Assembly: GCA_016782445.1 (NCBI GenBank)
Contig: JADHYM010000010.1
Coordinates: 1 to 38,965, forward strand
Source: Candidatus Omnitrophota bacterium
GTDB taxonomy: Bacteria > Omnitrophota > Gorgyraeia > JABMRN01 > RBG-13-46-9
DNA: 38,965 bases
Reading direction: 5' to 3'
Part shown: in pieces, positions 2,929-17,874 of the stretch
Numbering within the stretch: position 1 is the first letter of the stretch
Layout of the letters: every line of letters begins with the position of its first letter
Notes under the pieces: model-generated
Seen by the model: the letters and a program-made list of their open reading frames with translations, nothing else
Told to the model about the DNA's origin: nothing
Databases searched by the model: none
Position numbers and translations under genes: made by a program

Positions 2929-3097
2929 TAGTTAGCGCCTCCAGGGCGCTTGCCGCATATAAAGCTTCCGAGGCGCGCCTGCCGAGCGGCGAACTTTTGC
3001 GCCGAATTCGTATTGTTTACACCCTCGCCAGCGACCTTTTGGTATTCTTATAACAATAAATGGGGTGAGCAGCGAGGTAGGCGCGGTTCGGAAGCTT
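2929..3097. repeat. Dispersed repeat copy A (136-base core plus shared left flank)
   Basis: Core 2962-3097 starts AAGCTTCCGA and ends TCGGAAGCTT. The next ten or so bases inside each end are also imperfectly inverted (GGCGCGCCT against AGGCGCGG). Two near-identical copies exist at 10192-10327 and 17675-17809. The 33 bases to the left (2929-2961), including a GCGCC/GGCGC hairpin, also match the flank of copy C with few differences. The right end overlaps the first base of the stop codon of the gene ending at 3097. No coding sequence is plausible inside. Confidence 0.9.
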
Positions 3098-5379
3098 TAT
3101 GCATAGGACATGCTCTGCTTGGAGCCGATAAGAAGAAGGATGAGGGTTGCGGTGTTCAGAAGGACGAGGAGAAAGCATGTTACTGGAATGCCGAGAATTG
3201 GCATAAGGAGCGCGCTTACGCATAGCGCACCCACGAAGGATCCAAGAAGATCGACTGAGTAGGTCGCGGAAACAGAGCGGCTCACCTCAGTGCCCCGGGA
3301 ACCCAGGTATATCCGGTTGGCCAACGGGTATTGAAGGCCCCCTATAAAGCCTGCAATAAGCGGCAAGAACGCAAATATGTTGCCGCCGATAGAATAGAAA
3401 GGTTCGCTTCTCAAACCGCCAAAAGCCTTGATGCACAAAAGAAGAAAAATCGGGTAAGCGACCACGAGCCACTGTATTTTAATATACGCGCCGTAGGGAT
3501 TTTTAATGAGATCCAGTTTTCTTGTCATGTACATGCCGCCCGCTCCCAACCCCAGCATGAAAGAGGTGATGATTATGCCGATTTTGTAGTAGAGGTAGCC
3601 GTAGAGGGCCTGGAACGAGAGGACGATTATAATCTGGAAGGCTATCTCGCTCATTCCCGTCGTACCGAGGGCAAGAAGCGTTACATGTCTTACGAAGCCT
3701 TTTCCCCGCCTTAAAAATAAAAATACGAAAAATAGCGCGAAAATGCCTGTAACGGAAATTAGCAATAATCGCGGCGTTGTAAAGTACATGAAAAATTTTG
3801 ACAGAGAAAAACTCAAATACGAGCTCCAGAGAACCGTGTCGTAAAAATAGGAAATCGGCGAGAGGTCAAAATTTATTCTCACGGCGTTTTGCACACGGCC
3901 CAGCGCATTTTTTAAATAGCTTTGCCTTTCCCGGGATAAAAGCGAAAAGAGGTAGTAGTCCCTTACGTAAAGCGTGTGTATGCCTTTCTTTGCAAGGCGT
4001 GCCGCGATAAATTCAGGATCAAGCGAGATAAGGCCCTCATTCTTTGAAAGCAAAAAATATGCGGTGTTCCCCGGGATGATCTTCACATCCGGGAAGACGC
4101 TCTCTGCCGTTTGCGAAAGGGATTCCAGAAACATTGCCTGTTCACGGCTTAAATAGTTGGCGCTCGAGCTCACCGAAAAACCAACCACGCCCTTATCTTT
4201 TAAGAGGGATTTTATCTCTTCGAAAAATTCCTTCGTGTAAAACCTGTTTATCTCGGCAGTATACGGGTTGGGGAGATTTATAATTATGGCATCGTAGAGC
4301 GTTTTGCTCGTTTTCACAAAAAAGCGGCCGTCCGTATTTTTTATCAAGACCCGTTTGTCGTCGAGTGAATAGAATGGTTTTTCCTTAAGATATTTCCGGG
4401 AGAGAGTAATAATTAACGGATCCAGCTCTACGTAATCAATCCGGGCTCCGGGGTATTTTAGGATTTCTGCGAGAACTTCTCCCCCGCCGCCGATAAGCAA
4501 AATGTCTTCGGGTGAATCGAGAAAAACCATGGGAAAATGAACTGTTTCTTCGGCCGTCAGAGGGTCATTTGAACTGAAAAGAAAAAGTCCGTTTTGAAAG
4601 AAATTAATCTGGCCGGCCCTCTCGGTCACGGCCACTTTACCGTATATCGAATCCTCAACGTCGAGAACGTTAAACCCTTTCCACGATAGCCTTTCAGATT
4701 CTTTTTCAAGATAGTTCACGCCGCCCAATAAGCCCGCTGTTATTACCGCGCCGGTGAGCAAAATAGCAGAAGAGCGAAGGGCATTTTTTAGAAACGCTTT
4801 TTTACATGCGTACACGATCCATGCGGCTGAAATGAGGTTTAGGGCCGACAAAAGAAATGCTGCCGGCAGGCACGTAAAATACTTGATAAGAAAAAAGCTG
4901 GTTAAAAGCCCACCCAGTGCGGCACCTGCAGCTTCGAGCGTGTAGGCGTAACCGATTTTTTTGGAAGGTGTTGCTGCAACTACCATCTGCGAGCCCAGGA
5001 CAAATAGGAATGCTACAAGGAGCGCTATCGGTGTGAAAATAAGAACGGCGGCGGCGAGGAGAGCTCCGATGCCTGGTATCTCGCCTATCCCCACATGAAA
5101 AGCCAGTTTGAGGCATCTGGCAGCCAGGATACTTAATGGCACGAAGGCGGCAAGTCCGATTTGCAAAAACGAAAAGAGAGCTCGTTTTTCTTTTATTCTT
5201 TCCGAAAAAAATCGCGCAAGCGGCCCGCTTCCGACGCTACCGCCGAGAAGCCAGACGCTGAGCGCAAATCCGATAGATAATTCATTGCCGTAAAAGGAAG
5301 TGAAAAATTCGCGAAGAAGGAGTATCTGGCTTGATACGGCCGTTATGCCGAGAACGAATAGTGCGTAGATTATTCCCAT
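3097..5379 (-). CDS. Polytopic membrane protein with spermidine-synthase-like domain, catalytic Asp replaced by Asn
   Basis: 760 residues: several membrane helices (about 5-215), a soluble spermidine-synthase-like Rossmann domain (about 235-500) and more helices (about 525-755). The nucleotide-binding signature is present (GGGGE 297-301, ELDP 318-321, D350 in NTDGRFF). The segment that in true aminopropyltransferases carries a catalytic Asp (D-x-x-D-P) reads N-L-P-N-P (368-372), so polyamine synthesis is doubtful. The ATG at 5379 overlaps the end of the radical SAM gene by 10 bases; longer upstream readings only shadow that gene. The stop codon runs into repeat copy A. It belongs to the family of membrane-fused spermidine-synthase-like proteins whose substrate is, to my knowledge, undefined. 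Confidence 0.8.
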   Translation of the reverse strand: MGIIYALFVLGITAVSSQILLLREFFTSFYGNELSIGFALSVWLLGGSVGSGPLARFFSERIKEKRALFSFLQIGLAAFVPLSILAARCLKLAFHVGIGEIPGIGALLAAAVLIFTPIALLVAFLFVLGSQMVVAATPSKKIGYAYTLEAAGAALGGLLTSFFLIKYFTCLPAAFLLSALNLISAAWIVYACKKAFLKNALRSSAILLTGAVITAGLLGGVNYLEKESERLSWKGFNVLDVEDSIYGKVAVTERAGQINFFQNGLFLFSSNDPLTAEETVHFPMVFLDSPEDILLIGGGGEVLAEILKYPGARIDYVELDPLIITLSRKYLKEKPFYSLDDKRVLIKNTDGRFFVKTSKTLYDAIIINLPNPYTAEINRFYTKEFFEEIKSLLKDKGVVGFSVSSSANYLSREQAMFLESLSQTAESVFPDVKIIPGNTAYFLLSKNEGLISLDPEFIAARLAKKGIHTLYVRDYYLFSLLSRERQSYLKNALGRVQNAVRINFDLSPISYFYDTVLWSSYLSFSLSKFFMYFTTPRLLLISVTGIFALFFVFLFLRRGKGFVRHVTLLALGTTGMSEIAFQIIIVLSFQALYGYLYYKIGIIITSFMLGLGAGGMYMTRKLDLIKNPYGAYIKIQWLVVAYPIFLLLCIKAFGGLRSEPFYSIGGNIFAFLPLIAGFIGGLQYPLANRIYLGSRGTEVSRSVSATYSVDLLGSFVGALCVSALLMPILGIPVTCFLLVLLNTATLILLLIGSKQSMSYA

Positions 5380-6506
5380 ATTCCGGCTATCGGGTAGCCG
5401 CAGAACTTGCATTTGGAGCTCGCGATATTGTTCTCCATGACAAAATATCCGGCCCTGCCGACTACTGTTTTCTTGCACCGGGGACAGTACGTATTGTTGC
5501 CCGGATCCTGAGGCACATTTCCGATATAGGCGAAATGCAGGCCTTCTTTTTGGGCTATTTCCCTTGCCATACGGAGTGTTTTGACCGGCGTAGGAGGTAA
5601 ATTTTTAAGTTTATACATGGGCCAGAAGCGCGAAAAGTGGACAGGGACCTCTTTTCCCATGTTTTCCCGTATCCAGACGCACATATTCTTTATCATTACG
5701 GGGTCGTCGTTTAAAGTAGGAATGAGGAGATTGGTGAGTTCCACCCATATGCCGTTTTTTTTAGCTATTTTTATCGTTTCAAGCACGGGCTCGAGCCTCG
5801 CGCCGCATACCTCGCTCATAAAGCTCTCGCTGAATCCCTTGAGATCGATATTTGCCGCGTCAATAACGCCGGAGAGTTCCTCAAGCGGTTCCGGATTTAT
5901 AAATCCGGACGTCACCCAGACATTCTTAATTCCCTTTGCTTTCGCGAGCTTTGAAGTGTCGTACATATATTCGTAGAAGACAATGGGCTCGGAATACGTA
6001 TAAGCAATGGAGGCGCAACGCTCCCTTTGGGCGGCGTTAACGACTTCCTCGCAAGGAAGGTATCTCTCTACAACGTCCTCCGGGTTTTCCTGAGATATCT
6101 GCCAGTTCTGGCAGTATTTACATCTTAAATTGCATCCCGCGGTAGCGATGCTGAACGACCTTGAGGCAGGCAGCATGTGGTATAGGGGTTTCTTTTCGAT
6201 CGGGTCCACATGAATTGAGCAAGGAAGTTCATAGACGAGGCTATAAAGCTTTCCGTTTCTCGGCTCTCTCACCCTGCAGGGTGAGCGCTGGCCGTTTTTC
6301 AGAACGCACCGGCGCGGGCAAAGCGCGCACTCGACCGTACCACTGTCTATGACCCGATAGTGCCGAGCCTCTTTAAAATATCCTGTTTCGGCGAGCGCGT
6401 CGGCGCCTGAAAGGGCCCGCTCGATAAGTTTTGTGCCGAAAAAACTTCCGGCGACGGCGATAGACGCGCCCTTCAAAAATTTTCTACGTGTTATTTTCCT
6501 GAACAT
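5370..6506 (-). CDS. amrS: AmmeMemoRadiSam-type radical SAM protein with Tat signal
   Basis: 378 residues. The N-terminus T-R-R-K-F-L-K-G followed by a hydrophobic stretch is a twin-arginine signal or anchor (residues 6-24). A cysteine cluster (Cys60, 63, 67, 77 in a C-x2-C-P-x2-C context) precedes the radical SAM C-x3-C-x2-C at Cys125, 129 and 132. Two further pairs (Cys341/344 and Cys366/369) near the end look like a zinc ribbon. The overall pattern is that of the AmrS/PflA-like radical SAM family. The usual partners AmrA (AMMECR1) and AmrB (Memo) are not in the window. It overlaps the upstream hydrolase by 23 bases and the downstream spermidine-synthase-like gene by 10. A radical SAM enzyme carrying a Tat leader implies folding with its clusters before export. 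Confidence 0.87.
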   Translation of the reverse strand: MFRKITRRKFLKGASIAVAGSFFGTKLIERALSGADALAETGYFKEARHYRVIDSGTVECALCPRRCVLKNGQRSPCRVREPRNGKLYSLVYELPCSIHVDPIEKKPLYHMLPASRSFSIATAGCNLRCKYCQNWQISQENPEDVVERYLPCEEVVNAAQRERCASIAYTYSEPIVFYEYMYDTSKLAKAKGIKNVWVTSGFINPEPLEELSGVIDAANIDLKGFSESFMSEVCGARLEPVLETIKIAKKNGIWVELTNLLIPTLNDDPVMIKNMCVWIRENMGKEVPVHFSRFWPMYKLKNLPPTPVKTLRMAREIAQKEGLHFAYIGNVPQDPGNNTYCPRCKKTVVGRAGYFVMENNIASSKCKFCGYPIAGIWE

Positions 6507-8226
6507 CGGTATCTTTTTTAATCGTCTCCGGCTCTTTTACTTCGGGCGGCGGGCCCTCGGATTCGCATTTTTCATTCAGCCATTTTTTTAAAGTTTGGAT
6601 GACCTCGATGTCGGGGGAGTAGTATTTTACCTTCTCCGGGTCCTTGGCTGTTTTGCCCAGGAAGTGCCCCAGCGTTCTAAAATATACGCTTCGCGTGTCC
6701 TTAAGGCCCGCGTCCCGAAAAGCTTCTTCGATATTTTTCACACCGGAGGCAGAGGAAATTAAGTCGTCTTTTCCGTATATAATCAAGACGGGAACGCGTG
6801 TGTCCTTTATGCCGGAAAGAAAGTTTTGCTTATCGATCTCGATCATCCTTTTTACAAAAACCGGTTTTTGTAGCACAAAAACGCCGTCACGACTAGCGTT
6901 TTTGACGATACTCTCGGTGTATTTCTCCAGGGAGCGAAGCGTTGCCTCGTATGCGCCGTCGAATTTTTGCATATACGATATATGCCGGGATGCGCTTTCG
7001 CTTTCGGGATCAAGTATTTTTACGGGTAGCCTGGGACTTAGCATGACAAGCCCTGCAACCGGAAATTTCGTGAGGCCGGCCTGCGTTAGTAACAATGCGC
7101 TTTCCGAATGCGCAACGATAAATACATTTTTTCCATCAACCCTTTCGTTCGAATATAGAAGGTCTAAAGCGTTTTTCATGTCGTCGAGATCGTTTTTTAT
7201 ACTGGCGAACATATTGTCCCCCTGGGACTTTCCGGTGCCCCGCCTATCAAAGCGAAGAGTTATAAAACCTTCCTCGCTCATAGCGTCGGCAAGAAAAGAA
7301 TAAAGCCCTGCATTGTCGCGGGTCGCGGCGAGTTCGCCGGCCACGAACAAAACGGCCGGAAACGCGTCTTTTTCAAAGACGCCTTCGGGAATAGTGAGCG
7401 TTCCGGAGATCCCGACGTCTCCAGAGGGTATCATGACTTCTTCCGAGATATACGCCGCATTTTCGATTACAAGCGGCATCTTCGTTAATTTTTTAATACC
7501 GGGCACCTTTCTAGCGGTGAATCCATAATCCGATTTTATCGAAAGTATTAGAATGCTTTTATCCTTTTTTGAAACCCAGATCTTGGCTTCCGGAGCGGCG
7601 TTGGTTTTTACGATGAGGCACTCGGTTTTAACGGTTTTTCCGGCATAGGTAAGAAGCTCGTCTTTTATTGAAGTAAGAACAACCTTTCCCCGCGCGGGCG
7701 GCATAAGGGGCCGGCCCAGCAAGAAAATATTGAACGGCTGCGAGCCGCCGCGCGAGAAATCGTACTTTTCGACAAGAGGAAGGTATGTCACGAGAACCCG
7801 TGGGCTAAAAACGGATATGTCGTTTCGGCAAGGCACATCCATGGCGGCGCTGAAGCGCGAATTGTATGAGGAAAGAAAATCGAATGCTCCGGGTTTTCCC
7901 TCTATGTGCGTTGTTTCCGCCAGGGTATCGCCGTTTCTTTTTTCCGAAAAAAATTTCTCGAAAACATGCCCCTTTTTCTTAAAGACAATTTTAGCATTTA
8001 CCTTAGTGCCATATATATTCCGCGGGTAGAAAGCCGTTTCCCTGTATATGATCCTGTCTTCAGTTTTGTGCTTATCGATAACTACCTCTTGCACCTCACC
8101 CGTATTGATTTCTGCCATATAGCAGAACCGCTCATGCTGTTCTTTTTCAAACACAAGAAAAACAAACACAAGCGTTATTGCGATAGCCATGACGGCCGCT
8201 GCCAGGAAAAAACGCATCCATCTCAT
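6484..8226 (-). CDS. Membrane-anchored alpha/beta hydrolase
   Basis: 580 residues. One N-terminal membrane segment (about 5-27) and a beta-rich region of unknown role (about 30-250, weakly reminiscent of DUF3108) precede an alpha/beta hydrolase domain (about 265-570). The likely catalytic triad is Ser374 in A-H-S-E-S, Asp487/488 in YGKDDL and His521 in TLGHFL. The nucleophile elbow departs from G-x-S-x-G, having Ala372 and Ser376 in place of the glycines. RFDRRGTGKS (about 325-334) is the usual oxyanion-side loop of esterases and acyl peptidases. The tail is Pro/Glu-rich. The start ATG shares ATGA with the DUF4416 stop. Substrate unknown; being anchored, it probably acts outside the cytoplasm. 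Confidence 0.75.
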   Translation of the reverse strand: MRWMRFFLAAAVMAIAITLVFVFLVFEKEQHERFCYMAEINTGEVQEVVIDKHKTEDRIIYRETAFYPRNIYGTKVNAKIVFKKKGHVFEKFFSEKRNGDTLAETTHIEGKPGAFDFLSSYNSRFSAAMDVPCRNDISVFSPRVLVTYLPLVEKYDFSRGGSQPFNIFLLGRPLMPPARGKVVLTSIKDELLTYAGKTVKTECLIVKTNAAPEAKIWVSKKDKSILILSIKSDYGFTARKVPGIKKLTKMPLVIENAAYISEEVMIPSGDVGISGTLTIPEGVFEKDAFPAVLFVAGELAATRDNAGLYSFLADAMSEEGFITLRFDRRGTGKSQGDNMFASIKNDLDDMKNALDLLYSNERVDGKNVFIVAHSESALLLTQAGLTKFPVAGLVMLSPRLPVKILDPESESASRHISYMQKFDGAYEATLRSLEKYTESIVKNASRDGVFVLQKPVFVKRMIEIDKQNFLSGIKDTRVPVLIIYGKDDLISSASGVKNIEEAFRDAGLKDTRSVYFRTLGHFLGKTAKDPEKVKYYSPDIEVIQTLKKWLNEKCESEGPPPEVKEPETIKKDTDVQENNT

Positions 8227-8762
8227 GCCTTAAACCCTTTTCGTATTTCTGCAAGATGTATCCGGCGCACAGAATTAAAAAACTCAATATAATCTTTTGT
8301 CCGGTAATCGGGATAGGTCCATTCCAGGGGAACGAACGTTCCTTGCACGAACTGTAGTTCCACCTCCGCATATATGTGTGAGTCCAGGTAGATCCGATGG
8401 CTTCTCTCTTTGGTGGTGAAAAGCGTAAGGCTTGAAAGCCCTATGTATCCCGGGTCGATATTTACACGCCTTCCGGTTCTCGAGGAAAGTTTTTTTTCCA
8501 GTTTGTTTGTGTAAAGCTTTATGCGGTGGTTTTTCGAAAGAGAAACAGGTTTGCAAAAAACGATGAAAAGCCTTTTGAGCCCGCGCCCGAACTCCTTTTC
8601 GTAATACCGGGTATGGTCGAAATTAAAAATGCGGCTTTCGTTTTCTATGGGGCCGAATTTTTTTTGAAGACTCTTTTTTACGACATCAAAAAGCCGCACA
8701 TCGCCGCCTATGAGCCCTACGATTAGTTTTGCGGAAGGTTGGTTTGTTGTGGGGACGCCCAT
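8223..8762 (-). CDS. DUF4416 family protein
   Basis: 179 residues matching the DUF4416 pattern throughout: S-R-I-F-N-F-D-H-T-R-Y-Y, a central T-N-K-L-E, V-N-I-D-P-G-Y-I-G, H-R-I-Y-L and E-W-T-Y-P-D-Y. These conserved His, Asp and Tyr positions suggest an enzyme or ligand binder, but the family has no assigned function that I know of. The start lies one base after the upstream PilZ stop, and the stop shares ATGA with the hydrolase start. No signal peptide, so it should be cytoplasmic. Confidence 0.8.
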   Translation of the reverse strand: MGVPTTNQPSAKLIVGLIGGDVRLFDVVKKSLQKKFGPIENESRIFNFDHTRYYEKEFGRGLKRLFIVFCKPVSLSKNHRIKLYTNKLEKKLSSRTGRRVNIDPGYIGLSSLTLFTTKERSHRIYLDSHIYAEVELQFVQGTFVPLEWTYPDYRTKDYIEFFNSVRRIHLAEIRKGFKA

Positions 8763-8763
8763 T

Positions 8764-9147
8764 TTAAGGGGTGTTTGCTACTTGCGCTATAAAGTCGAAT
8801 AATTTTTTCTCGCCCGCGTCGTGGAATCTCGTGAATTTTATCCCGGTGTTGAAAAGTCTTCTCTCGGCATTTTTGCTTTCCTCGGCAGCCTCGGAAGACC
8901 ATGCCACTACGCCCCATGCCCTTATAAGATCGCTGTAGCCGGCAAGCTTGATCTCGAGCCTTAAGGGCATATCCTTTTTAAATTTCTCGTCCAAAAGGAG
9001 TTTTATGCCTTTTGTCGAGATGTCTACTCCTTTGGCGCTCGCGTCGTTACCGTTCAGATAATAGCGTACGGCTAGGTCTACCTCAAACCGGTCGGCGCTT
9101 CTCCTGTCGCTGCCGTCCCAGTAGCCCTTTAGCTTAACAATGCGCAT
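8764..9147 (-). CDS. Single-domain PilZ protein (PilZ-2)
   Basis: 127 residues forming one PilZ domain, the c-di-GMP receptor barrel. The binding motifs are Arg16-x3-Arg20 (RSADR) and Asp42-x-Ser44-x2-Gly47 (DISTKG), both intact. The start at 9147 has no clear ribosome site; it lies 22 bases after the stop of a possible small hydrophobic peptide. Translation may depend on coupling to upstream reading. It sits between PilZ-3 and DUF4416 in the operon led by the HIT gene. Confidence 0.87.
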   Translation of the reverse strand: MRIVKLKGYWDGSDRRSADRFEVDLAVRYYLNGNDASAKGVDISTKGIKLLLDEKFKKDMPLRLEIKLAGYSDLIRAWGVVAWSSEAAEESKNAERRLFNTGIKFTRFHDAGEKKLFDFIAQVANTP

Positions 9148-9169
9148 ATTGTTCAGTCGGATTTTCTTT

Positions 9170-9241
9170 TCATCGAAAAAAAGGCACAGCTAGTATCATG
9201 GCGAGTACCGCGACGGACAAAAGTTGAATTAAGAGGATCAT
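9170..9241 (-). CDS. Possible 23-residue single-helix peptide
   Basis: A short frame between two PilZ genes begins at an ATG (9241), five bases after the PilZ-3 stop, and ends in TGA at 9170. The product is almost wholly hydrophobic (MILLIQLLSVAV then more of the same, ending VPFFR), as expected for one membrane helix. There is no ribosome site, so it would need coupling to PilZ-3. It fills a gap otherwise unexplained in a tightly packed operon, but a frame this short can occur by chance. Confidence 0.3.
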   Translation of the reverse strand: MILLIQLLSVAVLAMILAVPFFR

Positions 9242-9246
9242 GATTT

Positions 9247-9612
9247 TTATTTGAGCTGTAAGTTTATGTAGTCCAGAAGGTCTTGCTTATCTTTTGGGGA
9301 TATATTATCGAAGAAAATCGCGACGTCATAATGCATGAATTTCCCGTCGATTATTACAGGGTGCTCCCTTACGACGACGCCCTCGGTAACGATCCTCAGC
9401 TTTTTTGACTCATTAGGCGCTTTGCCCTTGGTTTCGGGAACTACCAGCGTAACCTGTATCCTCGACAAAAGAGGTAGCTCCTTTTCGATTTTACAATAAA
9501 CTCCTGAAGCGCTTAAGTCGAGTGTTTTTGTAATGATGTTAACGTCGCCTGCCTCAACCTTTAATGAAATGCCCTCGTCTTTTATCCTGGGATATTTTCT
9601 TTTTTCGCTCAT
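9247..9612 (-). CDS. Single-domain PilZ protein (PilZ-3)
   Basis: 121 residues, one PilZ domain. Arg5-x3-Arg9 (RKYPR) and Asp32-x-Ser34-x2-Gly37 (DLSASG) are intact, so c-di-GMP binding is expected. The C-terminal half carries an insertion-like Lys/Asn-rich strand pair (TKGKAPNESKK). The start ATG follows an AAGGA site. It is the second gene of the operon begun by the HIT gene, 11 bases after its stop. Confidence 0.88.
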   Translation of the reverse strand: MSEKRKYPRIKDEGISLKVEAGDVNIITKTLDLSASGVYCKIEKELPLLSRIQVTLVVPETKGKAPNESKKLRIVTEGVVVREHPVIIDGKFMHYDVAIFFDNISPKDKQDLLDYINLQLK

Positions 9613-9623
9613 CTAATCCTTCC

Positions 9624-9968
9624 TTATCCAGGCGGCCAGGTGAATTTTCGCCCACCCAAAAGGTGCAGGTGCATGTGCAACACATCCTGCCCGGCGTCCT
9701 TGCCTGAGTTTATCACAAGCCTGTAACCCGAAGACTCTATTTTTTTGTCTTTAGCTATTTTCGAAGCGACGTAAACGAGCCTTCCGAGGAGTTCTATATT
9801 GCCTTTATCGACTTTGTTCGCGCCGGGAATGTGCTTCTTCGGGATCACGAGCACGTGCACCGGAGCCTCTTTGTTTATGTCCTCGAACGCGATTACATCG
9901 CGATCAGTATAAACGATTTTCGCCGGTAATTCCCCTGAAGAAATCTTGCAAAATATGCACTCCTGCAT
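9624..9968 (-). CDS. HIT family nucleotide hydrolase/transferase
   Basis: 114 residues with the full histidine-triad motif H-M-H-L-H followed by LLGGR, and the N-terminal C-I-F-C-K-I zinc-type signature of the HINT branch, which hydrolyses purine nucleoside phosphoramidates. A longer reading starts at 9977, but that ATG abuts the -10 box (9978-9983) and would lie upstream of the transcript start. The second Met at 9968 is therefore preferred, and the family norm of about 114 residues fits. The mRNA would be leaderless or nearly so, in line with the lack of any ribosome site. First gene of the operon running on to 3097. Confidence 0.88.
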   Translation of the reverse strand: MQECIFCKISSGELPAKIVYTDRDVIAFEDINKEAPVHVLVIPKKHIPGANKVDKGNIELLGRLVYVASKIAKDKKIESSGYRLVINSGKDAGQDVLHMHLHLLGGRKFTWPPG

Positions 9969-9977
9969 CGCTACCAT

Positions 9978-10006
9978 ATTATAAACATATAATTATGCTA
10001 TTGCAA
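9978..10006 (-). promoter_or_regulatory. Sigma70-like promoter of the HIT/PilZ/AmrS operon
   Basis: On the minus strand TTGCAA (10001-10006) and a consensus TATAAT (9978-9983) have a 17-base spacer. The expected start point is about 9970-9972, only two to four bases before the ATG at 9968. No Shine-Dalgarno sequence fits between them. Confidence 0.72.
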
Positions 10007-10109
10007 TACAATTTTTCTCCGGCTGCATGACAGGCGCCCTTTCGGCGACCTGAATAATAAGAAGTTTCCGGGCAGTGCTTCCGCTCGTCGCTCCCTCGGA
10101 GGATAGGTG

Positions 10110-10160
10110 CCCCTAGCAGTCTGTATGAAAAATGTGGAGTTAGGGACTTCCTTCGGTCGC
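10110..10160. repeat. Hairpin repeat, second family (copy 1)
   Basis: CCCTAGC ... GTTAGGG arms flank GCAGTCTGTAT and are followed by CTTCCTTCGGTCG. The same layout occurs at 12128-12177 with arms CCCTCGC ... GCGAGGG. One base pair differs by a compensatory change (C-G to A-T), and a second pair survives as G-T. Confidence 0.6.
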
Positions 10161-10191
10161 CCCTCGCTCACTCTTCAAAAAATGGACTGTT

Positions 10192-10327
10192 AGGCTTCCG
10201 AGGCGCGCCTGCCGAGCGGCGAACTTTTGCGCCGAATTCGTATTGTTTACACCCTCGCCAGCGACCTTTTGATATCTTTATAACAATATATGGGGTGAGC
10301 AGCGAGGTAGGCGCGGTTCGGAAGCTT
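10192..10327. repeat. Dispersed repeat copy B (136 bases)
   Basis: Begins AGGCTTCCGA (one change from copy A) and ends TCGGAAGCTT. It is otherwise nearly identical to copy A apart from the segment around 10271-10290. It lacks the 33-base left flank shared by copies A and C, so that flank is not obligatory. Same orientation as the other two copies. Confidence 0.88.
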
Positions 10328-10418
10328 GCACGTAAGCTGCGAGACAGGCATGGCATGGACGTCTACACGGAAGACATAAGCCATGAGATAGGTGCAGTTC
10401 GGAAACTTGAGGAGAGGG

Positions 10419-11113: not shown

Positions 11114-11165
11114 CCCTTCTCCCTGCCTGCCGGCAGCCTTAATTAAACACCGAAAAAAGTGAACG

Positions 11166-11206
11166 AAAAAAAGAGGAACAGATTTATCATCCATTCCTCT
11201 TTTTTT
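11166..11206 (-). terminator. Rho-independent terminator after the TIGR04073-like gene
   Basis: A stem of GAGGAA with TTCCTC extended by A and T runs (13 pairs, loop about 15 bases) is followed by a T tract on either strand. On the minus strand it ends the gene at 11233-11553, 27 bases after its stop. Confidence 0.75.
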
Positions 11207-11232
11207 GCTATCAAGTAAGAAAAATCCTAGAT

Positions 11233-11553
11233 CTATTCGCTGAATACATATTCCGGCTCAAGCACTGGTGCATACTCTTCGGGGATCGGGAATGGGAATG
11301 TCACGGTTTCATAGATACCGGCTCCCGTTCTCACTATCGTCATTCCGACGCCCTTCGCGAGGCCTATCGTCAAGCCAGAAAATACATTGTCCTCAACGCT
11401 TGTGTCGTAAATATTCTTTGGTAATTCTACCCATCCTGTTACTATGTTCGCAAGACCGCGCATAAGTTTCTTGCCCGGGTCCTGAGCATAACAGGCTGTC
11501 GCTATACCGACTATCGCTACTATAGCAACAAACATAATTATACCTTTCTTCAT
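11233..11553 (-). CDS. Secreted TIGR04073-like protein ('exosortase system-associated')
   Basis: 106 residues with an N-terminal signal sequence (about 1-24; either cleavage after C-Y-A or lipidation at Cys21 is possible). The mature part carries the pattern K-L-x-R-G-L-A-N-I-V-T-G-W-V-E-L-P-K-N-I-Y, then a Gly-rich membrane-like helix (GLAKGVGMTIVRTGAG) and a TFPFPIPEEY ... LEPEYVF end, which I recognise as the TIGR04073 family. No exosortase is in the window, and the role is unknown. Strong AGGAGGTG ribosome site, own promoter and own terminator, so it is a monocistronic and probably well-expressed gene. Confidence 0.78.
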   Translation of the reverse strand: MKKGIIMFVAIVAIVGIATACYAQDPGKKLMRGLANIVTGWVELPKNIYDTSVEDNVFSGLTIGLAKGVGMTIVRTGAGIYETVTFPFPIPEEYAPVLEPEYVFSE

Positions 11554-11595
11554 TTCTTTTTCACCTCCTTTTTGTTTTAGAATCTATTTATGCAA

Positions 11596-11624
11596 AGTAT
11601 ATCATATGTAAATTTCTTTGTCAA
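11596..11624 (-). promoter_or_regulatory. Strong sigma70-like promoter of the TIGR04073-like gene
   Basis: Minus-strand TTGACA (11619-11624) and TATACT (11596-11601) with a 17-base spacer, the closest match to consensus in the window. The leader is about 35 bases long and contains the AGGAGGTG site. Confidence 0.8.
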
Positions 11625-11667
11625 CCCCGTTAGAGAAGATTTTTAGAGAAGATTTTCTCTAACGGGG
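11625..11667. promoter_or_regulatory. 13-base-pair hairpin abutting the -35 box
   Basis: CCCCGTTAGAGAA and TTCTCTAACGGGG form a perfect 13-base inverted repeat whose left arm begins one base beyond the -35 of the TIGR04073-like promoter. The loop repeats TAGAGAAGATTTT. It lies just after the PilZ-5 stop but has no clean U tract, so it could be a terminator variant, an mRNA 3' stabiliser or a protein site. Confidence 0.55.
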
Positions 11668-11675
11668 TCAAGGGC

Positions 11676-12047
11676 TCAAGAGGCACTTTTTTTGATAAGA
11701 GTGCCAATGATAGCGGATATTCTTTTGCGGTCCTCTTCTTTAATATCGATAAATTCGATGCCTGTATCGTACATCTCTTTTGACTTCTCCCCTATCTCTC
11801 TTTTTTTGACCACCCATACGACTGTACCGGTGCAAGCGATCCTTGTACCTGTCTTATCCTCAATATCAAGCTCCAGGCTTACACCCTGAAAAAGGCCGAG
11901 GTTTTCTTCAACGACCACGCATATGCCGCCGGAGCCCAGATTTTCCGTATGTGTTGCAAACGGGCGTGACTTCTCGTTTTTCCTTATATGAATGAGGCAC
12001 TTATAATGCGCTCGCGGAAATCTTCTTCTGTCAATTCCGTCCCACAT
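11676..12047 (-). CDS. Single-domain PilZ protein with altered second motif (PilZ-5)
   Basis: 123 residues. Arg8-x3-Arg12 (RRFPR) is intact, but the second motif reads Asn36-Leu-Gly38-Ser-Gly-Gly41, with Gly in place of the usual Ser38, so ligand binding may be altered. The ATG at 12047 is set by an AAGGAG site six bases upstream; a longer frame to 12146 crosses the promoter and is rejected. It is transcribed from its own promoter, divergently from gspA, and ends at the 11625-11667 hairpin. Confidence 0.85.
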   Translation of the reverse strand: MWDGIDRRRFPRAHYKCLIHIRKNEKSRPFATHTENLGSGGICVVVEENLGLFQGVSLELDIEDKTGTRIACTGTVVWVVKKREIGEKSKEMYDTGIEFIDIKEEDRKRISAIIGTLIKKSAS

Positions 12048-12067
12048 CTTGATCTCCTTCTTGAGTA

Positions 12068-12096
12068 AGTATATATAACGATTAGGGTAAATGCAA
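12068..12096 (-). promoter_or_regulatory. Sigma70-like promoter of PilZ-5
   Basis: Minus-strand TTGCAT (12091-12096) and TATACT (12068-12073) with a 17-base spacer; the AAGGAG site and ATG follow about 20 bases later. Confidence 0.68.
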
Positions 12097-12290
12097 GTAA
12101 AATTCTGTTTTCGTCGATCGGTTGCGTCCCTCGCAGTCTGTATCATTTTTTGCGGTGCGAGGGACTCCCTTCGGTCGTAGCTGGAATCGTTATACGGTGA
12201 CCGTTAGACGGTACGTTTAACGTACAACGCATGACGTTTCGAGCTACGACACCGTTCAGCGTTTCACGCCTACCTCGGAAGTATTTTTGC
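12097..12290. repeat. Structured divergent intergenic region between PilZ-5 and gspA
   Basis: No gene is supported here. Contents: the second-family hairpin GTCCCTCGCA / TGCGAGGGAC (12126-12135 and 12156-12165) with the shared CTTCGGTCG tail; a longer inverted pair GTCGTAGCT / AGCTACGAC (about 12174-12250) enclosing a GTACGT-TTA-ACGTAC hairpin and several ACGGT/ACCGT words; and CGCCTACCTCG (about 12268-12278), which also occurs near the right end of the 136-base repeat. Confidence 0.6.
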
Positions 12291-12319
12291 TTTACATTTA
12301 AGTGTGCGTCACCTATAAT
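12291..12319 (+). promoter_or_regulatory. Sigma70-like promoter of gspA-gspB
   Basis: TTTACA (12291-12296) and a consensus TATAAT (12314-12319) with a 17-base spacer. The expected start near 12326 leaves a leader of only about 15 bases with no Shine-Dalgarno sequence before the ATG at 12341. Confidence 0.72.
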
Positions 12320-12340
12320 ATAAAGCACTAACCAAAAGCT

Positions 12341-13168
12341 ATGTATTTAGACTACTACAAACTAAAAGAAAATCCGTTCAACGTAACGAGCGATCCTAGC
12401 TTTCTTTTTCTGGGCCATGCCCATAAGGAGGCGCTTTCGCATCTTCTTTACGGGATAAAGGAAAAGAAAGGCTTTCTTGAAATAACCGGTGAAATAGGAG
12501 CGGGCAAAACTACTTTATGCAAGGCACTTCTCAAAAAGCTGGACCCGGGCACAAAAACCGCGTTTATACTCAACTCGAACCTTTCCGAAATGCAGCTTTT
12601 GCAGGCGATTCTCGAGGATTTTGGCATAACGGTTCAGAAGAAAAGCAAAATATCGTTTTTCAAGGGGCTAAACGATTTTTTGCTGGAGGAATGCAGGAAA
12701 AATTCTAACGCCGTTCTCATTCTTGATGAGGCGCAAAATATAAAATCCTCGACTCTTGAAGGGATACGCCTTCTCTCCAATCTCGAAACGGACAAGGAAA
12801 AGCTTTTTCAAATCGTGCTGGTCGGACAACCCGAGCTTCGCGAAAAACTGAATTCTCCCGAGCTTGCACAGCTCAGGCAGAGAATCGCTGTCCGGTATCA
12901 CGTGAATCCGCTGGAAAAAGATGAGGTGCGTCAGTATATACTTCACCGGTTGAGTGTCGCGGGCGGAGCAGGCGATATAATATTTACAGATGAAGCGATA
13001 GAAAAAATCTTCGAATACTCCGGCGGCATACCGCGGCTTATAAACCTTGCGTGCGACAAGGCTCTCCTGGCGGGGTTCGTTGCTGAAACAAGATCCATCA
13101 ATCGCGATATTGTTGAAAAAAGCGTTTGCGAACTGGAAGGTAAGCCCGCTGAAGTCGTAAGGGTATGA
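12341..13168 (+). CDS. gspA: GspA/ExeA-type AAA+ ATPase
   Basis: 275-residue AAA+ ATPase. The N-terminus Y-x-L-K-E-N-P-F-N-V-T-S-D-P is the ExeA/GspA signature. Walker A is G-E-I-G-A-G-K-T-T (residues 50-58) and Walker B VLILDE (125-130), with a sensor-type GQPELREKL segment and a C-terminal GGIPRLIN helix. In type II secretion, GspA works with GspB to place the secretin through the peptidoglycan layer. The C-terminal peptidoglycan-binding part of long ExeA proteins is absent, leaving only the ATPase core. It shares ATGA with gspB. These are the only plus-strand genes here, and no other secretion gene is nearby. Confidence 0.82.
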   Translation: MYLDYYKLKENPFNVTSDPSFLFLGHAHKEALSHLLYGIKEKKGFLEITGEIGAGKTTLCKALLKKLDPGTKTAFILNSNLSEMQLLQAILEDFGITVQKKSKISFFKGLNDFLLEECRKNSNAVLILDEAQNIKSSTLEGIRLLSNLETDKEKLFQIVLVGQPELREKLNSPELAQLRQRIAVRYHVNPLEKDEVRQYILHRLSVAGGAGDIIFTDEAIEKIFEYSGGIPRLINLACDKALLAGFVAETRSINRDIVEKSVCELEGKPAEVVRV

Positions 13169-13635
13169 GTACGATAGTCGAAGCGCTTAAAAAGATACAG
13201 CGCGCGCCCGAATCCCAGCTTGCCCCTCCCGCGAAGCATTCTGAGCCGGCAAGATCCGTAGATGTCCGAAAGGGGCCGGTCTTGCTTATCGTTTTCGTTT
13301 TGTTTTCCGCGAGCGTTTTAGGTTATTTTCTATATCAGCGTTCGCGGCCCGTAGTGCATGAGCCGGCCGCGGCGGAGCATCCCGCCTTCGTCCTTCCCGC
13401 CGAGACTATATCCCAAGAACCGGAAAGCCCCAAAAGAACTTCGGTTGAGACGTTTTACAACCCGTTAAGTTTGAGCGGAATTATGTACCTTAAGGGAAAG
13501 CCGCGCGCAATCATAAATAACCGCGTATTAACGGAGGGCGATACGCTAGAGGGTTTTACGATTTTGAAAATCGGAATAGATTCAGTGAAAGTGGAGTCTT
13601 CCGAGGGTGTAAGCACGGTCCGCCTGACGCGATAA
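13165..13635 (+). CDS. gspB: GspB-like membrane protein
   Basis: 156 residues with the layout of GspB: an N-terminal cytoplasmic S-T-I-V-E-A-L-K-K motif, a single membrane helix (about 38-57), a Pro/Ala/Glu-rich periplasmic linker, and a C-terminal domain (about 102-156) containing LSGIMYLKGKPRAIINNRVL and a GDTLEGF turn, as in the PilP/GspC-like homology region. It overlaps gspA by four bases, which supports an ATPase plus anchor pair. It converges on the thioesterase gene with only three bases between the stops and no terminator. The alternative of a generic pilus-assembly accessory cannot be excluded. Confidence 0.7.
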   Translation: MSTIVEALKKIQRAPESQLAPPAKHSEPARSVDVRKGPVLLIVFVLFSASVLGYFLYQRSRPVVHEPAAAEHPAFVLPAETISQEPESPKRTSVETFYNPLSLSGIMYLKGKPRAIINNRVLTEGDTLEGFTILKIGIDSVKVESSEGVSTVRLTR

Positions 13636-13638
13636 CGC

Positions 13639-14022
13639 CTATTCGAGCGCCTTTCGTACCTCTTCCGGAATTTTTATGGGTTTTTTGTCCGCGTTCGTGA
13701 ATACGTGTGCTGTCTCGCCCAGGGCAACGAGCGTAGAGCCCTTTTTAATCGTATAGGAAAAAGTTAAACTCGTGTTCCGCATATCCTTTATACCGGTTTC
13801 GACGGTTATGGAATCATCGTAGGTAACCGGTGATTTGTAGGTGCATTGCGCGCTTATCACCATAAAGCGCACATTTTTTTCTTCCTCCATCCGGCGATAG
13901 GATAAACCGATTTTTCTAAAAAACTCCGTACGCGCGACTTCGAACCACACGAAATACTTCCCGTAATAGGCAACGCCCATTCTGTCGGTTTCTTCGTAGC
14001 GGACTCTTATAGTTATTTTCAT
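13639..14022 (-). CDS. YbgC/4HBT-type acyl-CoA thioesterase
   Basis: 127-residue single hotdog-fold protein. The N-terminal signature R-Y-E-E-T-D-R-M-G-V-A-Y-Y-G-K-Y, with catalytic Asp13, and W-F-E-V-A-R-T-E are those of the YbgC/FadM branch, which hydrolyses short-chain acyl-CoA or related thioesters. Its ATG immediately follows the stop of the GNAT gene. No tol-pal genes are adjacent, so the usual YbgC context is missing. Substrate not predictable. Confidence 0.85.
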   Translation of the reverse strand: MKITIRVRYEETDRMGVAYYGKYFVWFEVARTEFFRKIGLSYRRMEEEKNVRFMVISAQCTYKSPVTYDDSITVETGIKDMRNTSLTFSYTIKKGSTLVALGETAHVFTNADKKPIKIPEEVRKALE

Positions 14023-14478
14023 TTACAGCGATTTTACAAAAGTGTGGATATGGAACCCGCTCACCTCGAGCGACTCCTTCTTGTCGAATCCGTGTTTTTT
14101 GCACAGTTTAATGGCGGACATCATCCTATCCGTCGCACGAAATATGATTTCCTTATACTTTGCGTCTTTGCAGAAATCGACAGCGGTTTTTAAAAGCAAG
14201 GTGCCGCACCCCTTACCCCTTGACGACTCTCCTACAAAAAGCCTGCGCAATAGAACGCTTGTGCCTGAATCCCGCTTGACACCCACTGTGCCGACAATCT
14301 CGCCATTTTCCTCTATTACAAAAAAAGAGTTTCCTTTGCCGCCATAAGTGCCTGCTATGTCTTGTATGTCCGTATCCTTGTACGCGGTCTGATCGAAAGG
14401 GTATTCTTTTTGAAGTATGGAAAGGATGAGTTTTTTTACGCTGCTTGAGTCTTTCGGCTTGTAGGCCCTTGTTTCCAT
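14023..14478 (-). CDS. GNAT family N-acetyltransferase
   Basis: 151 residues. The acetyl-CoA loop R-G-K-G-C-G-T-L-L, preceded by LRRLFVGESS (motif A), and the following IKLCKKHGF segment (motif B) define a GNAT domain covering the whole protein. The start has a textbook AGGAGGT site five bases upstream. It lies between aroB and the thioesterase in the pckG operon. Neither motif reveals whether the acceptor is a small molecule or a protein. Confidence 0.85.
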   Translation of the reverse strand: METRAYKPKDSSSVKKLILSILQKEYPFDQTAYKDTDIQDIAGTYGGKGNSFFVIEENGEIVGTVGVKRDSGTSVLLRRLFVGESSRGKGCGTLLLKTAVDFCKDAKYKEIIFRATDRMMSAIKLCKKHGFDKKESLEVSGFHIHTFVKSL

Positions 14479-14496
14479 GAATACCTCCTTGTGACT

Positions 14497-15576
14497 CTAT
14501 CTTTCGATTGTTTTTCGTATGAGGCGCCGGGGAACTTTTTCGACGGGTTTGGCGCACCCTATTTTTTTAGGTAAAATGAATTTATTCGTGCCTTTTGTGA
14601 ATTTTTTATCGAATGCAAGAGATCGAAGCACTTTCTTAACGTTTAGCCGGGCGACTTTTTTTCCTTTAAGCCTTTGTATAAGTGAGATGATTCTCTTGTA
14701 ATCTTTATCCTCGAGCATTCGGAGCTCCCTGGCCACAAAGCTTGCCATGATCATTCCGCGCGCAACGGCGTCGCCGTGAGATATCGATTTCGTATAACAG
14801 GCGGATGCCTCGATGGCGTGCCCGAAAGTATGCCCGAAATTTAGCACCGCGCGTATGTCGCGGTTGTCAAACTCATCTTTTTCGACAATCCGCGCTTTTA
14901 TGGCTGCTGTGCGAAGCACGACCGCCTCGAGAAGTGCTTTTTCGCGCTTTATGATTCTCGAAAGATTTTTCTCAAGAAGCGCAAAGAGCCCGGCGTCTTT
15001 TATAACAGCGCACTTTACAACTTCAACAAGGCCGTTCTTAAGTTCTTTGAGGGGTAGTGTATCGAGAAATCCGAGGTCGCAGAGTACGAATTGCGGCTGG
15101 TAGAAGCTCCCTACTATGTTCTTGGCCTCCTTTATGTCCAGTGCTACTTTTCCCCCGATAGCCGAGTCGACCTGCGCAAGAAGCGTGGTCGGAATTTGCG
15201 CGTACGGAACGCCGCGCCGGTATGTGCTTGCAACGAAGCCGGCCAGATCACCCACTACCCCGCCGCCAAATGCGATTATAAAAGGAGTCGCCTTTTTTGT
15301 TTTTTTCGAGAGAACTGCCATGGTTTTTTTATAGACGCCGAACGATTTTGCTTTTTCAGAATCAGGCGTTGTGTGGAAGATGAGGTTTTTAGTAAGGGGC
15401 CTTAGCCCCTTGCGGAGCGCTGCTCCGTGAAGTTTGAGGATTTTTTTGTTGCTGATTATGAAGATAGGGGTGTTTTTGCTTTTTATCTTTAGGAGGCACC
15501 CGAGCTTTGCGACGAGGTGGTTACCTATATATATACTGTAGCCTCGTTTCCCCAGGCGCATATGAATCGTTTTCAT
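14497..15576 (-). CDS. aroB: 3-dehydroquinate synthase
   Basis: 359 residues. Second step of the shikimate pathway, converting DAHP to 3-dehydroquinate with NAD+ and a metal. Visible signatures: G-G-G-V-V-G-D-L-A-G-F (NAD loop), the T-Y-R-R-G-V-P-Y-A-Q-I-P-T-T-L-L-A-Q-V-D-S-A-I-G-G region, the glutamate metal ligand in G-L-V-E-V-V-K, and the two His motifs F-G-H-T-F-G-H-A and S-H-G-D-A-V. The C-terminal quarter is unusually Lys/Arg-rich. Its start overlaps the pckG stop by one base (TAATG). aroQ, the next enzyme, lies far away at 37125. Confidence 0.96.
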   Translation of the reverse strand: MKTIHMRLGKRGYSIYIGNHLVAKLGCLLKIKSKNTPIFIISNKKILKLHGAALRKGLRPLTKNLIFHTTPDSEKAKSFGVYKKTMAVLSKKTKKATPFIIAFGGGVVGDLAGFVASTYRRGVPYAQIPTTLLAQVDSAIGGKVALDIKEAKNIVGSFYQPQFVLCDLGFLDTLPLKELKNGLVEVVKCAVIKDAGLFALLEKNLSRIIKREKALLEAVVLRTAAIKARIVEKDEFDNRDIRAVLNFGHTFGHAIEASACYTKSISHGDAVARGMIMASFVARELRMLEDKDYKRIISLIQRLKGKKVARLNVKKVLRSLAFDKKFTKGTNKFILPKKIGCAKPVEKVPRRLIRKTIER

Positions 15577-17366
15577 TAGGATTTTAAGCGTTCTTCAAAA
15601 GCGCGAAGTTCTTTTAAGATTTCTTTCGGCAGGCGACGTCCGAACTTCGCGAAGAATTTTTTTTGCTCTCCTACTTCCAGGGCCCACTCTTTTTTGTCAA
15701 TTGAGAAAAGCTCCTTCCACTTTCTCTCCCCTATTTTTATGCCATCGGTATCAATGTCGCCGTATTTAGGTATGTACCCCAGGGGCGTTTTTACGGCTCC
15801 GACTTTTCCGTTGCACCGGTCAAGAATCCATTCTAAGATCCTTACATTATCCCCGAATCCGGGCCATAAAAAGTTGCCGCGCGAATCCTTTCTGAACCAG
15901 TTTACATAGAATATCCTGGGTGGGCGCGCCATCCTTTTCCCTGTTTTAAGCCAATGGGTGAAGTAGTCCGCCATGTTATAGCCGCAGAAAGGAAGCATTG
16001 CCATGGGGTCCCTTCTTACCTCGCCGAGCTTGCCGTATTGGGCCGCTGTTCGCTCCGACACAAGCGTGGCACCAAGATAAACCCCGTGTTGCCAGCTGAA
16101 CGACTCCGAGACGAGCGGCGCCAGGCGAGCCCTGCGGCCGCCGAATACGATCGCAGATATCGGGACACCGTGATGGTGCTCAGAGCGGAACGAGGCTGAC
16201 GGGCACTGCGAAATAGGGGCGGTAAATCTTGAGTTAGTATTAGCTCCCTTCACGGGCAAGCCGTCTTCGTCGCGTATCCCTGATTTCCATTTACGGCCGA
16301 GCCAATCGATTCCGTTTTTTGGTGGTTTGCCTTCGCCGTCCTCCCACCACACGGTTTTATCGGGCTTCAGAAGAACGTTGGTGTAGATCGTGTTCTTTTT
16401 TATTGTTGCCATGGCATTCGGGTTGGTTTTGGAATTCGTTCCCGGCAGAACCCCGAAAAAACCCTTTTCCGGGTTGATTGCCCAGAGCGAGCCGTCTGAA
16501 TCAACGCGCATCCACGCTATATCATCTCCTACGGTCCATACCTTGACGCCTTTCTTTAGAATGCTTTTTGGCGGAACGATCATGGCAAGGTTTGTTTTTC
16601 CGCAAGCAGAAGGAAAAGCGCCTGCTAGGTATTGAATCTGGCCTCCGGGCCTTTCTATTCCCAATATGAGCATGTGTTCCGCGAGCCACTTTTCCTTTGC
16701 GGCCATGTAACTGGCGATGCGCAGAGCCAGGCATTTTTTACCGAGAAGAACGTTACCGCCGTAACCAGACCCGACGCTCCAGATAGTGTTGTCTTCGGGG
16801 AAGTGAAGTATCAGGCGCTTGGCCAGGTCGCGTTCAGCTTTTCCATGAAGGCACTTGGTGAATTCGCCGCGCGTACCGAGCTGTTTAAGCACCTTCTCTC
16901 CGGCGCGCGTCATTATGAGCATGTTTAATACCACGTATATGCTATCGGTAAGCTCAATCCCGATTTTGCTGAAAGGCGAGCCTGTGGGGCCCATGGAAAA
17001 AGGTATTACGTACATTGTGCGGCCCTTCATCGAGTCCTTGAAGATGCTCTCAGCCTTTTTATAGGCGGCGCGCGGGCTCATCCAGTTATTAATAGGTCCT
17101 GCAGTGCGCTTTTTCTTGGTACATATAAAGGTAAGTCCTTCGGTGCGCGCTACGTCGTTTGGCGCCGTTCGGTGCAAGAAACACCCCGGCATTTTTTTTT
17201 GGTTCAACCTGATAAGCTCTCCGGTTCTTGAGGCCTCTTTTTCAAGAGAGGTTTTTTGCTTCTGGCTACCGTTTATAAGTACGATATGGTCCGGCGCACA
17301 CATGCGCGCCATTTTATTTATCCAGGACTCAAGTTTTTTGTGCTTCAAAGCTATTCTTTGTGTCAT
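15576..17366 (-). CDS. pckG: Phosphoenolpyruvate carboxykinase (GTP)
   Basis: 596 residues, normal for the GTP-dependent class. Interconverts oxaloacetate and PEP using GTP. The P-loop with the hyper-reactive Cys is F-P-S-A-C-G-K-T-N (251-259; Cys255). The H-R-T-A-P-N-D-V-A-R-T-E stretch (65-76) corresponds to the substrate-binding SRTxPxDVAR motif, and the guanine-site region and FWPGFG-like FLWPGFGDN follow near the end. A good AAGGAAGG ribosome site and a sigma70-like promoter lie just upstream. First gene of the pckG-aroB-GNAT-thioesterase operon, so PEP supply is co-expressed with a shikimate enzyme that draws on it. Confidence 0.97.
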   Translation of the reverse strand: MTQRIALKHKKLESWINKMARMCAPDHIVLINGSQKQKTSLEKEASRTGELIRLNQKKMPGCFLHRTAPNDVARTEGLTFICTKKKRTAGPINNWMSPRAAYKKAESIFKDSMKGRTMYVIPFSMGPTGSPFSKIGIELTDSIYVVLNMLIMTRAGEKVLKQLGTRGEFTKCLHGKAERDLAKRLILHFPEDNTIWSVGSGYGGNVLLGKKCLALRIASYMAAKEKWLAEHMLILGIERPGGQIQYLAGAFPSACGKTNLAMIVPPKSILKKGVKVWTVGDDIAWMRVDSDGSLWAINPEKGFFGVLPGTNSKTNPNAMATIKKNTIYTNVLLKPDKTVWWEDGEGKPPKNGIDWLGRKWKSGIRDEDGLPVKGANTNSRFTAPISQCPSASFRSEHHHGVPISAIVFGGRRARLAPLVSESFSWQHGVYLGATLVSERTAAQYGKLGEVRRDPMAMLPFCGYNMADYFTHWLKTGKRMARPPRIFYVNWFRKDSRGNFLWPGFGDNVRILEWILDRCNGKVGAVKTPLGYIPKYGDIDTDGIKIGERKWKELFSIDKKEWALEVGEQKKFFAKFGRRLPKEILKELRAFEERLKS

Positions 17367-17388
17367 ATACCTTCCTTATGTTTATCCA

Positions 17389-17417
17389 AATATACGAAAT
17401 ATAGTATGATTTGTCAA
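17389..17417 (-). promoter_or_regulatory. Sigma70-like promoter of pckG
   Basis: Minus-strand TTGACA (17412-17417) and TATATT (17389-17394) with a 17-base spacer; the AAGGAAGG site and ATG at 17366 follow. Confidence 0.75.
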
Positions 17418-17674
17418 TCGTAATCTCGAGTATCGAAAATGTAAACGCAACATAAATGCTTTCAGAGGGCACTGCCACGCTGCTCGGCATAAACTTATGA
17501 TAAATATCTTAAAATAATGCGCTTGAGCATTCTGCCCTCGAATTCATGCCTGCCTGCCGGCAGGCAGGCGCATTAAAATGGCGCGATTGTATTCGCGATT
17601 TTTAAAGCCGCTTCAGCAATGCCCGCAACCCTCTTTATTCTAGTTATCGCCTTCAGGGCGTTTGCCGCATATAA
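17418..17674. repeat. Gene-free stretch of repeat modules upstream of copy C
   Basis: No gene is supported. It holds a perfect 22-base palindrome (17550-17571, halves GCCTGCCTGCC), a GCAATGCCCGCAACCCTCT module (17614-17632) that is the complement of one at about 38831-38849, a GTATTCGCGA module (17589-17598) resembling GTATTCACGA at 38952-38961, and, at 17641-17673, the 33-base flank shared with copy A. Confidence 0.6.
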
Positions 17675-17809
17675 AAGCTTCCGAGGCGCGCCTGCCGAGC
17701 GGCGAACTTTTGCGCCATACACTTAAGTTTACACCCTCGCCAGCGACCTTTTGGTATTCTTATAACAATAGATGGGGTGAGCAGCGAGGTAGGTGCGGTT
17801 CGGAAGCTT
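17675..17809. repeat. Dispersed repeat copy C (135 bases)
   Basis: Same AAGCTTCCGA ... TCGGAAGCTT ends and interior as copies A and B, except that the short segment after GCGCC (17716-17731) is replaced by unrelated sequence one base shorter, which destroys the inner TATTGTT arm. It lies between the pckG promoter and the terminator at 17835-17874. Confidence 0.88.
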
Positions 17810-17834
17810 TGTAAATTAAGTTGTCTTAAAGGAA

Positions 17835-17874
17835 AAAAATAAACGGCTTCCTGTGTAGGAAGCCGTTTATTTTT
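17835..17874 (-). terminator. Strong rho-independent terminator
   Basis: An 18-pair stem (ACGGCTTCCT core, loop GTGT) flanked by A and T runs, lying 15 bases after the stop of the gene at 17890-18333. It would also stop plus-strand transcription. Confidence 0.9.

Follow-up and report, generated by a model that had tools for sequence, protein, structure and literature searches.

Large back-to-back hairpin repeats in Omnitrophota genomes, folded under selection on one strand and probably mobile

ERIC, Correia (NEMIS) and RUP-type MITEs possess conserved terminal repeats and TA target duplications, and integron attC sites conserve structure over sequence and are recognised on one strand. REP sequences consist of a palindrome of 20-50 nt that follows a conserved tetranucleotide, mostly GTAG, and RAYTs recognise the folded single strand and mobilise the REPs (PMC8266576); REPIN doublets with compensatory changes in their arms have also been described (PMC3116915). 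Judged by analogy, these doublets are the nearest described kind for the two repeats reported here from Omnitrophota, a 136-bp repeat (A) and a second repeat (B) that adjoins it. Like REPINs and BIMEs, A and B are intergenic and multi-copy, carry two inverted hairpins per unit, show compensatory arm changes, and depend on the fold of a single strand (PMC3116915; PMC8266576). Unlike REPs, their hairpins measure 135-200 nt instead of 20-50, B contains a three-way junction with tandem G·A motifs, and the outer stem of B is hypervariable where the ends of REPs are highly conserved; a tetranucleotide of the GTAG type common to the foot of the stems was not found in the A and B alignments. With the ERIC, Correia and RUP-type elements, which are imperfect palindromes of 100-160 bp, they share a non-coding nature and an intergenic location, but here the ends vary with compensation, no TA duplication could be established and one strand is favoured. 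The maintenance of structure over sequence and the preference for a single strand also recall attC sites, but A and B do not form arrays of single-gene cassettes, their copies lie kilobases apart, and no RYYYAAC/GTTRRRY core boxes are conserved in their alignments.

The window, by which we mean the whole analysed stretch of 38,965 nucleotides, belongs to a genome (G000) of 1,004,523 bases in 37 contigs that is 85.9% complete; G, C and L below denote genomes, contigs and loci. A sequence-only reading of the window had reported three near-identical repeats in one orientation, and these were confirmed on the + strand at 2962-3097 (copy A, 136 bp), 10192-10327 (copy B) and 17675-17809 (copy C, 135 bp). 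Copies A and B are 97% identical, copies A and C 93% with one gap, and the window contains 111 repeated exact 24-mers, compared to none in 20 shuffles. The copies are non-coding with inverted ends, as had been stated, and copy A indeed ends on the final stop-codon base of the ORF at 3097-5478. The inner arms were also described correctly; the copy at 10192, however, starts with AGGCTTCCGA and not with AAGCTTCCGA. In all three copies the better-conserved fold is that of the window + strand, which at copy A is antisense to the genes.

Further copies exist in the genome: the three of the window and nine more make up 12 full copies of A on nine contigs with identities of 82-100%, and one more was found in another genus, so that the concern that the repeat might lack other copies or stem from the assembly did not hold. 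At two places in G000 only the 27-bp end of A is matched before the sequence runs into a different one, which is B. Outside G000, one copy of 96% identity occurs in G003, a genome of the same family and another genus; a search with the R2 model over a sample of 147 genomes gave matches to A only in G000, the G003 copy coming from another search and not being listed there. A is confined to G000 plus this single copy in G003. The genes beside the copies have no common function and include PilZ, spermine-synthase-like, HIT and PEP carboxykinase genes as well as two without a Pfam match.

The three copies are real, but the sequence-only reading overlooked the adjoining repeat and thereby saw half of the unit. 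Every copy of A in the window abuts an intact or decayed B, or the remains of one. A truncated B on the minus strand (17464-17634, 30 bits under the covariance model of B) lies back to back with copy C, a decayed one, also on the minus strand (10060-10175, 21.7 bits), lies back to back with copy B, and a remnant to which no strand was assigned is found by copy A at 2887-2961, where positions 2887-2925 correspond to the outer 3' arm of B and 2926-2963 to a spacer shared with copy C. The final bases of the window fall inside an otherwise intact copy on the minus strand that is cut by the contig end (38829-38965, 120.5 bits) and of which the terminal 90 bases recur unchanged at the end of contig C31. 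B measures about 165-200 nt and forms a three-way-junction hairpin: its outer stem is long, as is the first of its two arms, which has a conserved GCGCCATTT loop side, and AGCGA motifs are located at the junction. Some B loops contain extra small hairpins (GCCCGCCTGACCGGACGGGCAGGC, TCCGCCAGAGGCGGA; L063:4775-4965, L064:4051-4242, L066:241-433 and L031:1241-1439), as if smaller repeats landed there. A comparison of the A copies with the B model gave 6-21 bits, and since such scores arise on both strands they are uninformative about a distant homology of A and B.

In G000 the B covariance model gave 38 matches that represent at least 22 separate places, counting copies and fragments, and because contig ends often fall in B, copy numbers are underestimates. 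The A/B family explains many of the contig breaks in this assembly. Across the class, B was matched in 18 of 147 genomes, and the single-contig genomes G007 and G112 (taken to be CP070780.1 and CP070655.1) have several copies each. An exact 19-mer from the B core was present in 21 stretches among about 85,000 GTDB genomes, 20 of which are titled Omnitrophota or Omnitrophica; the remaining match (L132:3188-3206) lies on a 3.4-kb contig of a 'Selenomonadales' MAG, where misbinning or transfer is possible. The same 19-mer had no match in IMG/VR, and a phage or viral origin was rejected on this ground. A search of Rfam at A and B returned no family at the gathering score, and in the literature on Omnitrophota or Omnitrophica repeats, with subscription papers mostly outside its coverage, we found no account of them; A and B are real and, as far as the literature searched shows, undescribed. 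An RNase P RNA (RF00010) is located at L183:3534-3884, just before a B element of G007.

Wherever two elements, A/B or B/B, lie within about 250 bp of each other, their selected strands (as defined below) point apart, in 14 of 14 pairs if one truncated tandem half-copy in G112 is left out. These comprise B-B pairs on C16, C2, C20 and C37, B-A pairs at two sites of the window, on C31, C34, C33 (two sites) and C5 and in G003, and, in G088, two pairs of B-like elements. It follows that the unit is a divergent doublet.

The structure of B was assessed on a sequence-only alignment of 18 copies. Paired cells amounted to 97.9% (84.1% in shuffles) and covariation to 0.451 (0.190 in the control), and sliding the partners by 1-3 columns lowered pairing to 35-49%. 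Double changes were found in 24 of 47 pairs overall and in 17 of 20 in the outer stem, a result reached in none of 500 shuffles. Even within one genome the outer stem reads AGGGTTGCGGGC, AAGGTTCCGGG, GGGGTTTCGGGC, GCGAGACACTGCGTC, GCTGCCTTTGGGGC and others, each paired with its own complement; its sequence varies among copies and pairing is kept by compensatory change.

Which strand is concerned can be read from the mismatches, as G·U and A·C should be equally frequent if both strands were equally important. In an alignment that penalises both alike and is thus symmetric between the strands, the B stems of 61 copies contained 64 G·U versus 8 A·C, and about 31 versus 5 when G000 and G003 are left out (our tally of rows); the outer stem of A, the only part of A used in this test and likewise aligned symmetrically, contained 26 versus 1 on the window + strand. 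The associated p-value of 6e-12 overstates independence, the copies being related, but the sign of the bias is steady across many genomes. Strand-biased cytosine deamination as a source of the G·U excess was rejected because unpaired (loop) columns show no excess of C/T over A/G. With covariation above the shuffled and slid controls and G·U in excess over A·C, the repeats thus behave as elements structured on one strand, which we call the selected strand. This strand also gives the better fold in 53 of 56 copies of B and 12 of 13 of A, and the consensus of A folds at -60.9 kcal/mol on the + strand, for which the alignment has a few extra flanking bases, versus -44.7 on the minus strand. In the second arm of B, 30 of 56 copies show a perfect GC-GA-NN-GA-stem pattern on the selected strand and none does so on the opposite one; of 1120 shuffles, one has it. 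The GA steps are unchanged while the NN pairs between them covary (GC/GC, CC/GG, CT/AG, AT/AT, GT/AC), as is characteristic of tandem sheared G·A pairs. Selection acts on how one strand of each hairpin folds, and A and B are therefore neither plain terminal repeats nor two-strand cruciforms nor intrinsic terminators. Tolerance of G·U is compatible with RNA as well as with single-stranded DNA. GC skew, sampled in two single-contig genomes (the second in part), tracks the coding strand and gives no clear origin or terminus.

Comparison of orthologous sites bears on how the repeats came to their places. In G001, B and another hairpin sit between two divergent genes, the right-hand one of which we take from its sequence to be hisG-like, and the orthologous site of G003 is empty, with the same two genes and 72 bp between the flanking matches versus about 540 in G001. 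In G007 a distance of about 670 kb separates the flanks of this site, each of which has B-like sequence nearby, as if the repeats had recombined; the break in synteny between these two genomes of the same genus lies at B (G001:C13 versus G007:C1, at ~148.5 kb and 821.6 kb). Between G000 and G003, A and B are 93-96% identical, whereas the coding DNA of one shared locus is 67-74% identical. The G003 contigs that carry A and B may be misbinned G000 DNA, which would bear on this cross-genus identity; the left-hand neighbour gene of the G003 doublet has matches of 73-75% in G001, G007 and G002, which end before the doublet is reached. Taken together, the empty orthologous site and the cross-genus near-identity point to mobility.

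We therefore consider it probable (roughly 0.6) that A is half of a dispersed, non-coding and non-autonomous mobile unit in which two large imperfect hairpins are placed back to back, as A-B or B-B. The best reading of A/B is that of non-autonomous, single-strand-selected, REPIN-like mobile doublets. Such a unit would work like a giant REPIN: the folded single strand, most likely single-stranded DNA exposed during replication or repair, would be recognised by an enzyme acting in trans, and the units, being copied or moved, would end up in intergenic gaps as the places of least harm. Of the three interpretations offered by the sequence-only reading, likeness to REP/BIME has proved the best analogy with respect to the inverted doublets and one-strand folding; it breaks down over size, the tetranucleotide and the repeats that flank RAYT genes. 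Y1_Tnp (RAYT) genes are present in G000, in 118 of the 147 genomes of the class and in 17 of the 18 that bear B, and because they are such a common background in the class their presence is weak evidence. When the B model was run at 22 RAYT loci from 11 genomes, no adjoining B was found (best hit 8.5 bits, E 0.83); adjacency was thus rejected at 0 of 22 loci and membership in the RAYT system is not claimed. The RAYT loci (L165, L161, L164, L172, L173, L176 and others) often have inverted repeats of their own at both ends, e.g., GGGGACGTTTCACCTTG. A more specific version of the preferred reading is possible but tentative, namely that A/B represent a hitherto undescribed, phylum-restricted mobile class of large back-to-back three-way-junction hairpins, folded as single strands and with tandem sheared G·A helices. 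It would be moved by a nuclease or recombinase that recognises structure and not sequence, which would leave the outer stem free to drift while remaining paired.

The location of the repeats relative to genes might suggest a different role, also among those offered by the sequence-only reading, that of a cis-acting RNA element at transcript ends serving termination, 3'-end stabilisation or processing. Many copies start 0-60 nt from a stop codon, some overlapping it, and the structure is strongly conserved. Each A copy of the window lies, as had been noted, at an operon boundary, 3' of one minus-strand gene and upstream of the promoter-like site of the next; these sites are pattern matches only, all on the minus strand and downstream of the respective copy in gene direction (copy A, TTGACG-17-TATACT at 2840-2868; copy B, TTGCAA-17-TATAAT at 9978-10006; copy C, TTGACA-17-TATATT at 17389-17417). 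At two sites orthologous between G000 and G007 (L027:5740-6320 versus L218:5900-6510; L023:6940-7480 versus L186:3800-4570), the A of G000 is replaced by other, unrelated giant hairpins directly after the same gene. Such sites could be either a hot spot or the seat of an exchangeable post-gene function, and different hairpins in the same position could reflect a positional function rather than chance insertion. One of the G007 replacement sites holds a 54-nt mini-B (L186:3978-4031) in which the outer stem is closed by GGAGCGACAAGCGGA and both arms are missing; it may be an ancestral or minimal hairpin. As a general rule, however, a function at transcript ends is rather unlikely. Where A is flanked by genes of the same strand, these are sense to its window minus strand in eight of nine cases, the selected strand there being therefore antisense to the upstream gene; for B, the selected strand is antisense to the flanking genes in 21 cases and sense in 14, with 5 and 2 others. 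A strong intrinsic-terminator hairpin of the upstream gene (17833-17871, minus strand AAATAAACGGCTTCCTACACAGGAAGCCGTTTATTTTTTT) precedes copy C, which therefore lies between terminator and promoter and outside both neighbouring transcripts, and several A/B copies lie in divergent promoter regions. A U tract follows the hairpin on the selected strand in only 6 of 47 copies of B and 1 of 12 of A (the other 11 copies of A lacking one), compared to 12 of 47 and 3 of 12 on the opposite strand, so that a U tract of their own, as in intrinsic terminators, was rejected as not above background.

We consider it unlikely that A and B are classical MITEs, in which the inverted ends would be terminal repeats bound as double strands by a DDE transposase encoded elsewhere. 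The dispersed intergenic copies, the empty site and inverted ends that are perfect or near-perfect would all fit, and in genus g2 the ends of B resemble those of a second element with another interior (GGACAG..TTTAAGCTG; L116), as if one enzyme served both. On the other hand, the ends differ among copies of one genome yet remain self-complementary, and a one-strand G·U bias is not expected under double-strand recognition. In the G000 assembly, which is 86% complete and in which many contigs break in repeats, a full-length transposase-bearing version with these ends, such as the sequence-only reading had proposed to look for, was not found, and no consistent target-site duplication was seen at the ends of A or at the single empty site. 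The ends of A are conserved and those of B are not. The suggestion of a non-autonomous mobile element made by the sequence-only reading is upheld as to dispersal, the empty site and cross-genus near-identity, while selection on the fold of one strand is unlike a plain MITE with terminal inverted repeats. The element at L116 (about 1228-1463, G001) belongs to a third family of large hairpins that also occupies many places in G007; its interior is unlike B and its outer stem, GGACAG..TTTAAGCTGGTGCC, resembles the B outer stems of the same genus.

A multi-copy trans-acting non-coding RNA expressed from the selected strand would account for a strand-specific, covarying fold with conserved unpaired motifs, but no Rfam family is matched and promoter-like sites upstream of the selected strand occur in only 3 of 47 copies of B and 1 of 12 of A, against 2 and 2 on the other strand; a promoter of their own was rejected as not above background, which makes this reading quite improbable. 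Still harder to maintain is an immobile double-stranded protein-binding or cruciform repeat, such as a nucleoid or gyrase site: the repeats are palindromic, intergenic and close to operon boundaries, but the one-strand bias and the near-identity across genera compared to diverged coding DNA speak against it. An assembly or binning artefact, which the many contig ends in these repeats might suggest, can be practically dismissed, as the copies differ by 3-18%, their flanks differ, and the B family is found in the single-contig genomes CP070780.1 and CP070655.1, which refutes it for the family.

Dispersed palindromes of bacteria are usually short (REP) or marked by conserved ends (ERIC, Correia). 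The present family is phylum-restricted, with ends that are variable yet paired, a one-strand fold under selection and copies in divergent pairs. The strand test applied here, which compares G·U with A·C in symmetric alignments, is usable on any family of palindromic repeats. As REPIN-like doublets, A and B have spread through the intergenic spaces of these Omnitrophota, probably as mobile passenger DNA; they separate 'structure-recognised' from 'sequence-recognised' mobility and offer a concrete substrate for the search for the enzyme.
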